DNA of 64,000 nucleotides from Phycobacter azelaicus. Lineage in GTDB: Bacteria; Pseudomonadota; Alphaproteobacteria; Rhodobacterales; Rhodobacteraceae. Both the position numbers and the translations under genes were made by a program. The notes under the pieces were generated by a model, which saw only the letters and a program-made list of their open reading frames with translations, was not told the DNA's origin and did no database searches. The stretch is from assembly GCF_014884385.1 (NCBI RefSeq), contig NZ_WKFH01000002.1, positions 1-64,000 on the forward strand. The letters run 5' to 3'. The first letter of the stretch is position 1; the number at the start of each line of letters is the position of its first letter. This document shows, in pieces, positions 6,163 to 13,234 of the stretch.

Positions 6163-7227
6163 TCAATCGTCTAGCAGGTCCCAGCTCATTGGGGTGCCTT
6201 TTGCCACGTCGCGACCGACCTTTCGGCCCAAAAGCACGTCGTAATACCGGGGGGCAAGACCCGAGCCTGGGCGGATACGGCGCAGATTTCGTGAGGTCAG
6301 CTGATCTCCTGCTTTCATATCCTCGCCGATATAAAGAGAGCGACGTTTCTTGCGCCCTTTTTGCTCCGATTCCGTACCTCCAAACCAGATTTCTCCCATG
6401 GCTTGGGCCGCACGTTCAGTTTCAACCACCAATGCGGTGAATTCATCCGGTTCGAGTGAGAATGCACTGTCCACGCCCCCTTCGGAGCGGTCGAGGATAA
6501 AGTGTTTTTCAATGACAGTTGCCCCGAGCGCGGTTGCTGCGACGGAAACGCCCGTTCCCATTGTGTGATCGGACAGCCCGAAATTGCAGCCAAAAGTCTG
6601 GCCCAGAAGCGGCATGGTTACAAGGTTCGTATTCTCAGGGCTTGCAGGATAGCTCGAGGTACATTTGAGGAGCGTCAGGTTTGTGCACCCCGCGCTCAAA
6701 GCGGTTTCCACCGCTTCACCTATTTCGACGGGTGTTGCCATCCCGGTCGAGATGATCATGGGCTTGCCGGTCTCGGCCACACAGCGAATGAGTGGCAGGT
6801 CGATCGCCTCGAAGGAAGCAATTTTGTAAAGCGGTGCATCAAGGCTTTCCAAAAGCTCCACCGCGTCTTCCGAGAAAGGAGTGGAAAAAGGAATGATCCC
6901 TTTCTTGCGCGCCCGGTCGAATATGGGCTTGTGCCATTCCGCCGGGGTGTGGGCTTCCTCATAGAGTTCATAGAGCGTGCGTCCGGCCCAAAGCGACTTG
7001 GGATCGGTAATTGTGAACTCACCCTCGCTCAGGTCCAGAGTCATGCTATCTGCAGTGAATGTTTGGATTTTGATCGCATCGGCACCAGTGGCCGCTGCTG
7101 CATCTACGATGGCCAAGGCCCGTTCCAGCGACTGGTTATGGTTGCCGGACATCTCGGCAATGATGAAGGGGCCCTTGCTATCGCGGACGACTTGGGTTGC
7201 ACTCAGCGCCTGACGTAGGTCCTGCAT
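6163..7227 (-). CDS. pseI: Pseudaminic acid synthase
   Basis: The 354-residue protein belongs to the NeuB superfamily, PseI type. It condenses phosphoenolpyruvate with a 2,4-diamino-2,4,6-trideoxy hexose derivative to give a nine-carbon nonulosonic acid. The N-terminal TIM barrel starts FIIAEMSGNHNQSL, the PseI version of the motif; KIQTFTADSMTL, ISTGMAT, CTSSYPAS and GLSDHTMG follow. The last ~60 residues form the SAF/antifreeze domain (RSLYIGEDMKAGDQLT...RRIRPG). It is the last gene of the minus operon, 21 bases after the SDR gene. Length and both domains are normal. Confidence 0.93.
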   Translation of the reverse strand: MQDLRQALSATQVVRDSKGPFIIAEMSGNHNQSLERALAIVDAAAATGADAIKIQTFTADSMTLDLSEGEFTITDPKSLWAGRTLYELYEEAHTPAEWHKPIFDRARKKGIIPFSTPFSEDAVELLESLDAPLYKIASFEAIDLPLIRCVAETGKPMIISTGMATPVEIGEAVETALSAGCTNLTLLKCTSSYPASPENTNLVTMPLLGQTFGCNFGLSDHTMGTGVSVAATALGATVIEKHFILDRSEGGVDSAFSLEPDEFTALVVETERAAQAMGEIWFGGTESEQKGRKKRRSLYIGEDMKAGDQLTSRNLRRIRPGSGLAPRYYDVLLGRKVGRDVAKGTPMSWDLLDD

Positions 7228-7248
7228 GAAACTTGCTCCTGCCTGTAG

Positions 7249-8127
7249 TTACGCGCCCAGCTCCGAGCTCGTAGTATTTAATGTAGTTTTGAAATCGGTG
7301 ATGCCGGTTTCAAGGGAATAGCGTGGCTGCCAGCCCAGAACGGCCTTTGCCCGATCCAGCGCCATGACGGTTTGCGGCATGGGCGCGTCGCTGTCGGTTT
7401 TCAGGGCGACGGGCTGCGGATTACCAAAGATACGGTTGGCCGTTTCAGCGATTTCCGCCACCCGCCATGGCTGTCCGCCGCCGATATTAATCGTGCCCTG
7501 CGCATGCGAGGCAAGCGCGGCCTCAATGGCCTCAACCACATCTCGTACATAAATCTGGTCGATCACGTAGTTGGGATTGCCCGTCAGGGTGATCTGCTGT
7601 CCGTTTTGGGCGAGGTTGACGAACTTCATCAGCGCTGGCGTGCCTTTTTCTCCCGCCCCGTAGACGGCAGCAATTCGCAAGGCGATGGCGGACACGTCTG
7701 TGCCGCGTGTCAGCATTTCGAGATATTGTTCTGCCATCAATTTGGAGAGCGCATAGGCGTTGATAGGAGCAGTATCCGCAGTCTCACGGTAAGGCAGACC
7801 GCTGGCCGAAGAGTAAATCGCGATGGTGGAAGCAAGAACGATACGGTTTACTCCGACCGCTTGGGCCGCTTGCACCAGATCACCAATCACGCCCACGTTG
7901 GGTCCGTAGAAAGGACCCAAATCCATGGGAGCATCCTCGCGCGTCATACGCCGACCCGCCAGGTGGACTACTGCATCGACCCCCTCGAGTACCCGGGCAA
8001 GACTGTCCGCTGTATAATCCGTCTCTTGGCGGCTCAAGGGGCGCACCGAGTGCCCGGCCGTTTCCAGAGACGGACAGAGATAGCGTCCAATGAAACCCGA
8101 TGCGCCGGTGACGGCAACGACACTCAT
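7249..8127 (-). CDS. NAD-dependent extended SDR epimerase/reductase
   Basis: A 292-residue extended short-chain dehydrogenase with the cofactor loop GASGFIGRYL at the N-terminus, HLAGR, ASTIAIYSS and the active-site pair NAYALSKLMAEQ (YxxxK). Such enzymes act on nucleotide sugars as epimerases, reductases or dehydratases. It sits between the ATP-grasp gene (4-base overlap) and pseI inside the pse operon. It is not one of the six canonical pse functions, so it probably modifies the nonulosonate or a precursor. A specific reaction cannot be assigned. Confidence 0.75.
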   Translation of the reverse strand: MSVVAVTGASGFIGRYLCPSLETAGHSVRPLSRQETDYTADSLARVLEGVDAVVHLAGRRMTREDAPMDLGPFYGPNVGVIGDLVQAAQAVGVNRIVLASTIAIYSSASGLPYRETADTAPINAYALSKLMAEQYLEMLTRGTDVSAIALRIAAVYGAGEKGTPALMKFVNLAQNGQQITLTGNPNYVIDQIYVRDVVEAIEAALASHAQGTINIGGGQPWRVAEIAETANRIFGNPQPVALKTDSDAPMPQTVMALDRAKAVLGWQPRYSLETGITDFKTTLNTTSSELGA

Positions 8128-11049: not shown

Positions 11050-11081
11050 GTGCGCGTCCTTTCTGGCCTTTGCCGTCTGCG

Positions 11082-12236
11082 CTAGCCCAGCACCCTGTGC
11101 ATCGCTGCAACGACAGTGGACTGCTCTTCTTCTGTCAGCTTGGCGTACATGGGCAGGGCCAGCATCCGAGCATAGTAATCCTCGGCGACCGGGCACAGTC
11201 CCGCCTCAAAGCCCAGTTTCGCATAGTAAGGTTGGAGATAAACTGGGATATAAAGAACGTTCACGCCGATCCCCAGTGCACGTAGCTGATCAAAGGCTAC
11301 TTCCCGATTCACAGGTGCCTCATCGCGGAGCAGCACAGGATACAGGTGAAGCCCTGAGTGCTGGAAGTTTGGTTGATGAGGGAGCTTCACAGGAAGATCC
11401 GCCAGGGCTTGATCATAGACTTTGCGCCGGGCGTGGCGTGCTGCAGTATAGTCTGCCAACCGAGACATCTGGCTGACGCCAAGGGCGGCCTGCAAATCGG
11501 TAATACGATAATTATAGCCGAGGCTGATTTGCTCGTAATACCAAGGACCATGGCTTTGGCCGAGCATGCGCGCCGGATCACGGGTAATCCCGTGGCTGCG
11601 CAATTCGGTCAGGCGTGTGGCCAAGTCCGGATCACGAGTGGTTGCAACCCCGCCTTCTGCTGTGGTGACGATCTTCACCGGATGAAAGGAGAAGACACAG
11701 ATGTCGGAATGGGCGCAATTGCCCACTGGCGCCCCACGGTAGGATCCGCCGATGGCATGACTAGCATCCTCCACCACGCGAAAACCGTAGGTGTCTGCTA
11801 GGGCACCTAAACGTTCCATGTCGCAGGACTGTCCTGCGAAATGGACCGGGACGACCACCTTGGGCAACGCCCTTGTCTTTGCTGCCGCCTTTAGCCGTGC
11901 TTCCAGCGTATCGAGGCACATCACATAGGTGTCGGGATCAATATCGATGAAATCGACTGACGCACCACAATACAGGGCTGCATTGGATGTGGCCACAAAG
12001 GTGTTGGGAGAGGTCCACAAAAGATCCCCTGGCCCCAGATCAAGCGCAAGATAAGCAATGTGCAGTGCAGCCGTAGCCGAACTCACCGCGATGGCATGAG
12101 TCACATCGCAGGTATCGGCTATGACGTTTTCGAACTCCGCAATCTTGGGGCCTTGTGTAATGAAGTCGCCAAGCAGAGTTTCGCAGACGGCATCTACATC
12201 CGTCTGGGTGATGTCCTGGCGGCCATAAGGGATCAT
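11082..12236 (-). CDS. pseC: UDP-4-amino-4,6-dideoxy-AltNAc transaminase
   Basis: A 384-residue DegT/DnrJ/EryC1 PLP aminotransferase. It starts [17 protein letters not shown] as PseC proteins do and then shows [25 protein letters not shown] carries the Asp that contacts the PLP pyridine nitrogen. [14 protein letters not shown] carries the Schiff-base lysine. It adds the 4-amino group to the keto sugar made by PseB, using glutamate. The first codon overlaps the pseB stop (ATGA). Confidence 0.93.
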
Positions 12237-13234
12237 TCCATTGCCATCTTGTTGAAGGCAACAATCTCTTCCACAGTCAGGAAGTGAGGATTGGAGCCCG
12301 AGTTATAGGAATATCCCTGTTCGACCGGAACGCCTTTTTCACCAAGCGCATTCTCGTCGAAAGCAGCCTCTCGTTCATAGAATTTGATTGTAGGCTGCAG
12401 CACAAAGTGATCATCGAATTCCAGTGTCAGATGGCTGTCATCGGAGGGACACATGACTTCATGTAGTTTTTCACCGGGACGAATGCCAACCACGTGCTGC
12501 TCAAGATCGGGTGCAATGGCTGTAGCCAGATCGGGAACACGTACAGAAGGAATTTTCGGCACGAAAATCTCACCACCATACATACGTTCAAAGTTCTTAA
12601 GAACGAAATCGACCCCCTGCTGCAACGAGATCCAGAAACGGGTCATGTTGACATCGGTAATGGGCAAGCTGGTGGCCCCTTCGGCCTTGAGCTTTTCGAA
12701 GAACGGGACAACAGAGCCGCGCGAACCCACTACGTTACCATAGCGGACAACGGCGAAACGTGTGCGCTTAGAACCAGCCATGTTGTTGGCCGCAACAAAA
12801 AGCTTGTCAGAGGCCAGCTTGGTGGCGCCATAAAGGTTGATGGGGTTGGCTGCCTTGTCAGTGGACAGGGCAATCACTTTCTCCACCTTGTTGGCCAAGG
12901 CGGCATGGATCACGTTCTCAGCACCATGCACATTGGTGCGAATACACTCCATGGGGTTGTATTCAGCGGCTGGCACCTGCTTCAGGGCTGCAGCATGGAT
13001 CACGTAATCAACGCCTTCCATGGCCTGGACCAGTCTGTCGCGATCACGCACATCACCAATCAGATAGCGCATCTGCGGCTGGTCAAAAACTTGAGCCATC
13101 TCGAACTGCTTGAGCTCATCCCGCGAATAGATGATCAGCTTACGGACCTTGTATCGTTCCAGCAAGGTCTTGACGTATTTACGTCCAAAGCTTCCTGTAC
13201 CACCGGTAATCAAAACCGTCTTGTCATCAAACAT
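12233..13234 (-). CDS. pseB: UDP-GlcNAc 4,6-dehydratase (inverting)
   Basis: A 333-residue SDR that makes UDP-2-acetamido-2,6-dideoxy-L-arabino-hexos-4-ulose, the first step of pseudaminic acid synthesis. Motifs: [62 protein letters not shown] use the ATG at 13234 ([12 protein letters not shown]), as in most family members. A GTG three codons upstream (13243) sits just behind AGAGGG and could be used instead. It heads the intact part of the minus operon, 154 bases downstream of the disrupted hydrolase gene. Confidence 0.93.

Follow-up and report, generated by a model that had tools for sequence, protein, structure and literature searches.

An ATP-grasp ligase and a short-chain dehydrogenase/reductase at the PseH position of a pseudaminic acid operon in Phycobacter azelaicus

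Gene content of the operon and its replicon

The canonical pathway to CMP-pseudaminic acid (cytidine monophosphate-activated pseudaminic acid, CMP-Pse) employs six enzymes, PseB, PseC, PseH, PseG, PseI and PseF. Five of them are encoded in the DNA considered here, a stretch of 64,000 nucleotides of Phycobacter azelaicus (positions 1 to 64,000 of contig NZ_WKFH01000002.1, here C2), referred to below as the window. Their genes form a minus-strand operon (13243-6163) in the order pseB, pseC, pseF, pseG, ATP-grasp ligase gene, short-chain dehydrogenase/reductase (SDR) gene and pseI; PseH is undetected, and the ATP-grasp and SDR genes stand in its place. The five Pse enzymes were scored against NCBIfam equivalog cut-offs, which each of them exceeds, and the ATP-grasp and SDR proteins against Pfam cut-offs:

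12233-13243, minus strand: pseB, UDP-GlcNAc 4,6-dehydratase (inverting); TIGR03589, 551 bits (cut-off 408)
11082-12236, minus strand: pseC, 4-aminotransferase; TIGR03588, 514 bits (cut-off 424)
10348-11049, minus strand: pseF, CMP-pseudaminic acid synthetase; TIGR03584, 279 bits (cut-off 206)
9284-10348, minus strand: pseG, UDP-sugar hydrolase, placed by its tree in a clade of ATP-grasp loci; TIGR03590, 171 bits (cut-off 154)
8124-9287, minus strand: ATP-grasp ligase, in the PseH slot; PF13535, 45 bits (cut-off 27)
7249-8127, minus strand: extended SDR, partner of the ATP-grasp ligase; PF01370, 132 bits (cut-off 21)
6163-7227, minus strand: pseI, pseudaminic acid synthase; TIGR03586, 477 bits (cut-off 340)

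The initial annotation of this DNA had described a tightly overlapped operon with pseB, pseC, pseF, pseG and pseI all present, pseH absent, and an ATP-grasp gene and an SDR gene lying between pseG and pseI. The gene content and the position of the pair are borne out by the cut-offs and the coordinates, and no PseH was found in the stretch, nor does a GNAT domain follow the window pseG. The overlaps hold in part: they measure 4 bases between pseG and the ATP-grasp gene and between the latter and the SDR gene, while a gap of 21 bases separates the SDR gene from pseI and one of 32 bases separates pseC from pseF. The start codon of pseB is GTG; an in-frame ATG at 13234, which matches the end given earlier, is an alternative start.

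The last 10.4 kb of C2 (70,600 bases) are a copy of its first 10.4 kb at 99.8% identity, and C2 is therefore taken as a circular replicon of about 60.2 kb whose contig was not trimmed at the circle ends. Its genes include those for an RPA-family replication initiator and a ParA-type ATPase, and it looks like a plasmid of about 60 kb, which the initial annotation had not noted. Window positions 60205-64000 are a second reading of positions 1-3796, and genes located there are the same genes read again. A second ATP-grasp copy at C2:68407, considered as a gene duplication, was rejected as part of this end redundancy.

Absence of PseH and recurrence of the module

PseH was searched for in the whole host genome with two profiles, and neither detected it; the initial annotation had proposed looking for it on the host chromosome. 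With TIGR03585 the best host match reaches 27 bits for a cut-off of 93, and none of 12 ATP-grasp genomes or plasmid records has a match above cut-off; as to specificity, the same profile gave weak matches in 13 of 14 control genomes and a match above cut-off in one. The second profile, built from 16 PseH-like domains as a guard against a divergent PseH, has a best score of 43.9 bits in the host and of 48.9 bits over a set of ten ATP-grasp entries, of which eight are whole genomes and two are plasmid records. Its other GNAT matches fall mostly in the same range (27-53 bits, with one at 69). In all four genomes used as its control (G079, G183, G170 and G208), whose loci were neither fetched nor used for building it, this profile scores 84-107 bits at a distance of no more than about 2 kb from PseI.

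The ATP-grasp sequence, used as a query, recovered eight loci from one genome scan and five plasmid-collection records, which together with the window make 14 loci. In 13 of these the ATP-grasp gene is preceded by pseG (its direct neighbour in 12) and followed by the SDR gene, and none of the 13 has a PseH-like gene in the stretch; the synteny without pseH that the initial annotation had suggested seeking in other genomes does recur, in 13 loci with the window included. Every one of these stretches holds pseI except L007, a contig of 4.8 kb, and an extra gene stands between the SDR gene and pseI in L003, L005, L009 and L037. The P. denitrificans locus (L036) has pseI, pseC and pseB on the opposite strand, separate from pseF, pseG, the ATP-grasp gene and the SDR gene, which stay together. 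Three pairs of loci are near-duplicates (L007/L036 from P. denitrificans, L008/L037 from Marinovum, and L006/L033), and the 13 loci therefore represent about ten lineages, among which Sinorhizobium sp. RAC02 is the one from another order. The 14th locus, on a Jannaschia M317 plasmid (L035, 9998-11982), has the ATP-grasp/SDR pair at 35% and 32% identity, adjoining a CatB-like acetyltransferase gene and with an rffA-annotated 4-aminotransferase gene nearby; no Pse genes were found in that stretch. On Marinovum pMaD10 (L037, 14001-15117), the ATP-grasp match is in two pieces as deposited, of which only the second is annotated as a gene, reflecting either a sequencing error or real decay.

The ATP-grasp protein is rare in the host family. 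It was found in 2 of 248 family genomes, the host and G038 (the same match as L004), and PseI (E <= 1e-90) in 22, 15 of them above cut-off. Among 61 relatives, including three others of the host genus, only the host gave an ATP-grasp context, and 337 genomes of the class and 398 of the phylum contained no further ones; all three are sparse samples.

What occupies the PseH slot elsewhere was determined in 29 other pse loci, 13 from named plasmid records and 16 from family genomes (17 of the 21 other PseI genomes were fetched, and G038 was set aside as an ATP-grasp locus). The stretch contains a PseH-like GNAT in 22 of the 29, a formyltransferase in three (one beside a GNAT) and neither in five (L019, L021, L028, L031 and L049); among the sequences labelled in this way, 15 GNATs and two formyltransferases had themselves served as queries. 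The 13 ATP-grasp pse loci have neither enzyme. In nine of the 16 family loci (L016, L017, L020 and L022-L027), the pseG-pseI interval is occupied by a PseH-like GNAT, in frame with the end of PseG and apparently forming a PseG-PseH fusion, and in some comparison loci, such as L044, L046 and L050, the GNAT gene does not adjoin pseI. A formyltransferase-like protein is encoded at the pseG-pseI position in L018 (8884-9549), and others in or beside the slot in L040 (7586-8281, with a GNAT too) and L051 (11168-11761), hinting at 7-N-formyl pseudaminic acids.

One further gene of the window, not noted in the initial annotation, follows the module throughout, and its start was chosen from relatives:

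16042-19086, plus strand: companion protein of about 1,014 amino acids, with a helical-repeat (TPR) N-terminus and a GT-B-like C-terminus

All 13 ATP-grasp pse loci encode the companion and none of the 29 comparison loci does; in the family sample, it occurs in 2 of 248 genomes, the same two as the ATP-grasp protein. Its TPR and GT-B parts are suggested by a structural model and a fold match of modest confidence. Caulobacter FlmG, a pseudaminic acid transferase that combines TPR and GT-B parts (PMC7591256), has the architecture that the model suggests, although FlmG has 596 residues and the likeness comes from the modest-confidence model. The companion is a candidate for, and probably is, a dedicated transferase for a modified sugar.

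A proposed amide-ligation route and its alternatives

One IQ-TREE tree was computed per enzyme, with 12 ATP-grasp loci for PseG (L007 left out) and 7, 9 and 8 ATP-grasp rows for PseB, PseC and PseF, respectively. The PseG proteins of the 12 ATP-grasp loci form one side of a branch of length 3.0 with an SH-aLRT (Shimodaira-Hasegawa-like approximate likelihood ratio test) support of 100, a strongly diverged clade when set against the canonical pathway. The PseI proteins of these loci likewise form one side of a branch, with an SH-aLRT of 83, which the star of the tool does not mark as significant. For PseB, an ATP-grasp clade is rejected (p = 9e-55), and RAC02 sits among ordinary loci. Pairwise identities follow the same lines: RAC02 PseG is 40% identical to that of the window, compared with 21-32% for other loci, while its PseB, at 53%, does not stand out above the other loci, whose median is 55%. 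The enzyme acting right after the PseH step is thus tied to the ATP-grasp protein and the first enzyme of the pathway is not, which suggests that the ATP-grasp step falls after PseC and before PseG. The initial annotation had envisaged an acylation before condensation by a route outside the textbook pathway. Comparison favours such a step before condensation, at the amine that PseH acetylates in the canonical pathway, since the pseG-pseI slot holds a GNAT or a formyltransferase elsewhere and PseG forms a clade, with the PseG/PseB contrast coming from one locus.

The ATP-grasp protein belongs to the carboxylate-amine ligases by both domain and fold. Residues K108, K145, E183, Q260, E272 and R276 are invariant in 23 aligned rows; they may have nucleotide and metal roles, with Ala274 standing here where Asn is usual. 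The best solved-structure match of its model is PDB 3vot, an L-amino acid ligase of B. licheniformis, but the identity is 16%, which allows no inference about the substrate. L-amino acid ligases, purine enzymes and biotin carboxylases are its neighbours in sequence and fold, a range that does not fix the donor acid. No nonulosonic acid enzyme was among the structure matches listed for this model or that of the companion, which excludes nothing. The SDR keeps the TGxxGxxG and YxxxK motifs, all 11 aligned rows sharing T7, G8, G11, G14, Y125 and K129, and R33, also kept in this alignment, suggests an NADP(H)-type enzyme. As a UDP-glucose 4-epimerase (GalE), the SDR was rejected, TIGR01179 giving 99 bits against an equivalog cut-off of 262.

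Altogether, we consider it probable, with considerable room for doubt, that this is a pseudaminic acid pathway without PseH, in which acylation from acetyl-CoA gives way to the ATP-dependent ligation of a free carboxylic acid as an amide, and whose product, a pseudaminic acid modified at 7-N, has a dedicated transferase. In such a pathway, PseB and PseC would, judging by their families, produce the usual intermediate, UDP-4-amino-4,6-dideoxy-beta-L-AltNAc. A free carboxylic acid would then be activated with ATP by the ATP-grasp enzyme and joined as an amide to the 4-amine, an amino acid or a hydroxy acid being a more likely donor than acetate, and the SDR would oxidise or reduce the acid or the attached acyl group. 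PseG of the separate clade would remove UDP from the modified sugar, the matched PseI and perhaps PseF would carry it to a CMP-Pse with a non-acetyl N7 group, and the companion, with its TPR and GT-B-like parts, would transfer it. From the clades and co-occurrence we infer an adaptation to the modified sugar in PseG, PseI and the companion, and perhaps in PseF. The data themselves establish the gene content, the lack of a detected PseH, the recurrence, the clades and, weakly in the case of the companion, the folds; the reaction, its position in the pathway and the role of the companion go beyond them. The putative N7 group is likely to be other than acetyl, as the initial annotation had suggested. 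Held more tentatively, and in our judgement possible rather than probable, is a fuller version: a branch independent of coenzyme A and self-contained as a plasmid module, in which the ligase adds an amino or hydroxy acid, the SDR finishes it, and matched PseG, PseI and PseF together with the transferase lead to 7-N-aminoacyl (or hydroxyacyl) pseudaminic acid.

Several observations weigh against this amide-ligation pathway. An ATP-grasp clade is not rejected for PseC (p = 0.31) and is neither shown nor rejected for PseF in IQ-TREE (p = 0.34; FastTree support 0.99). RAC02 is the single locus behind the contrast between PseG and PseB, and within the Rhodobacterales, PseB and PseC of the ATP-grasp loci cluster too (FastTree 0.90 and 0.98). 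RAC02 PseI is 60% identical to that of the window, compared with 64% for a cyanobacterium and 62% for Peribacillus, and the stretches with those two PseI proteins contain no ATP-grasp gene. The PseG trees came with long-branch warnings, and contiguity, that is, linkage in one block, could by itself explain co-inheritance. With the 16-row profile, the PseH signal is also missing from three family genomes, G001, G032 and G186, which have PseI and no ATP-grasp match; it is likewise missing from the formyltransferase genome G039 and sits on a different contig in G223. Pse islands of Geobacillus have also been reported without PseH (PMC5109656), so that a Pse cluster lacking this enzyme has a precedent.

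The nature of the donor acid leads to another explanation. The ATP-grasp fold includes PurT, which uses formate, and because of this a small acid, even acetate, is possible as the donor. A PurT-like enzyme would join acetate or formate with ATP and give the ordinary Pse5Ac7Ac, or 7-N-formyl pseudaminic acid, by another route. This is unlikely, since an ordinary N-acetyl product would not call for so strong a divergence of PseG, and the coupled SDR would be left without a role. Somewhat more doubtful still is that an undetected acetyltransferase encoded elsewhere performs the PseH step while the ATP-grasp and SDR proteins act later, on the nonulosonate, on its carboxylate or in epimerisation of the chain. 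In favour of this reading, the third step in Caulobacter has redundancy and survives removal of three candidate genes (PMC7591256), which also speaks against the ligation route; the S. fredii gene for the PseH step, rkp3_013, is named apart from rkpL-Q (PMC7591256); and a reductase-bearing pair, EpaA-EpaB, turns pseudaminic acid into its 8-epimer (PMC12053666). Yet neither PseH profile finds anything above other GNATs in the host, the second finds no PseH in nine further ATP-grasp genomes or records, epimerisation needs no amide ligase, and PseG, which acts ahead of any late modification, is the most strongly clade-bound enzyme.

It is highly improbable that plain linkage on plasmids accounts for the pair, the ATP-grasp and SDR proteins serving another sugar of the same polysaccharide. 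The module does lie on plasmids in several hosts, and Jannaschia has the pair in a stretch without Pse genes, but in P. denitrificans the four genes from pseF to the SDR gene remain together despite the separation of pseI, pseC and pseB, which are on the other strand. Moreover, PseH is undetected in the ten searched genomes or records with the pair, so something must perform that step. Least probable of all is that the AAC(3)-like N-acetyltransferase encoded at 20481-21248 replaces PseH and the ATP-grasp pair serves something else. In its favour are its N-acetyltransferase family and the location of its gene on the plasmid that carries the operon. Against it, just 4 of the 11 ATP-grasp genomes or records tested have it, five whole genomes with the module lack it, and a relative also occurs near an annotated pseH in Agrobacterium. 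On the first two of these counts it was rejected as a general substitute for PseH.

Partial parallels to the proposed ligation route come from several known systems, taken here from excerpts of the sources cited. In A. baumannii, psaDE encode a nucleotidase and an acetyltransferase, and exchange for psaGH gives an N7 3-hydroxybutanoyl group (PMC9676051); in the psaABCGHF cluster for 7-N-(R)-3-hydroxybutanoyl pseudaminic acid, the hydrolase and acyl genes are thus exchanged together and the N7 acyl group changes. The excerpt does not describe psaG or psaH as ATP-grasp or SDR genes, and the systems are likened by description only. In Geobacillus, fmt3 in place of fdtC represents a swap of acyl enzymes for another sugar (PMC5109656). 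The Shewanella oneidensis cluster sfmABCDE, like the module described here, has an ATP-grasp gene (SfmE, ATP-grasp_4) beside a NeuB-type synthase gene, and SfmE is required for flagellin to be fully modified with a glycan that contains a nonulosonic acid. However, that cluster lacks the PseB/C/G-ATP-grasp-SDR order and contains a thiamine pyrophosphate-dependent enzyme, an SDR resembling acyl carrier protein reductases and a methyltransferase (PMC3765264). In C. difficile, the ATP-grasp enzyme CDR20291_0245 is needed for the unusual peptidylamido sugar of type B flagellin; it differs in having no pseudaminic acid pathway around it and an ornithine-cyclodeaminase-like protein as its neighbour (PMC5207246). 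Amino-acylated amino sugars are known chemically (PMC3210612), as is an alanyl-bearing legionaminic acid, Leg5Ac7AcAla of Vibrio vulnificus, the enzyme for the alanyl group not being named in the excerpt (PMC7371886).

The pathway itself is known; the version with an ATP-grasp/SDR pair is a new variant, and no description of such a pair in a pse operon was found among open-access titles and abstracts, among the matches listed. If the proposed route is true, it adds a further chemistry for the N7 group of pseudaminic acid besides acyl-CoA-dependent GNATs and formyltransferases, and it provides matched hydrolase, synthase and transferase enzymes for making such sugars. An ATP-grasp gene and an SDR gene beside pseG would then be a genomic marker for them, and an annotated Pse cluster without PseH would become a prediction for mass spectrometry and no longer a gap.

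Accessory and neighbouring genes

The remaining features near the operon are as follows:

15342-15866, minus strand: first piece of a gene for a hydrolase-like and TPR protein, interrupted by an IS3-type element
13389-14087, minus strand: second piece (TPR part) of the same gene
19144-20484, plus strand: DUF4910/DUF2172 protein, a neighbour in some ATP-grasp loci; PF16254, 253 bits
20481-21248, plus strand: AAC(3)-family N-acetyltransferase-like protein, an accessory neighbour; PF02522, 106 bits

The hydrolase-like and TPR gene (15866-13389, minus strand) is split by the IS3-type element at about 14188-15320. Its hydrolase part carries the motif GTSMGG, which is serine-hydrolase-like, and the TPR part follows. 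Seven of the 12 other ATP-grasp pse loci (L004, L005, L006, L008, L009, L033 and L037) have a match to the protein, and none of the 29 comparison loci does. In L004 (6690-9122), it lies between pseG and the ATP-grasp gene, in one frame of 811 amino acids with the latter, apparently as a fusion of the two proteins. It is a possible accessory of the module; if the pathway needs it, the interruption by IS3 means that the host may make a partial product.

The genes for the DUF4910/DUF2172 and AAC(3)-like proteins also occur near pse genes in Tritonibacter and, as separate genes, in Agrobacterium. The plasmid carries a second nonulosonic acid set, which the initial annotation had not noted either (23825-24754, plus strand; 3348-4544, 2530-3351 and 1424-2533, minus strand), comprising a NeuB-family synthase, a cytidylyltransferase fused to a KdsC/KDN-9-phosphatase-like HAD domain, a CST-I-like sialyltransferase and an AGE-family epimerase, parts of which recur in several ATP-grasp loci. 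Finally, a protein with 19 stretches of RTX calcium-binding repeats is encoded at 27956-30856 (plus strand), beside ABC-transporter genes resembling those of capsule export.

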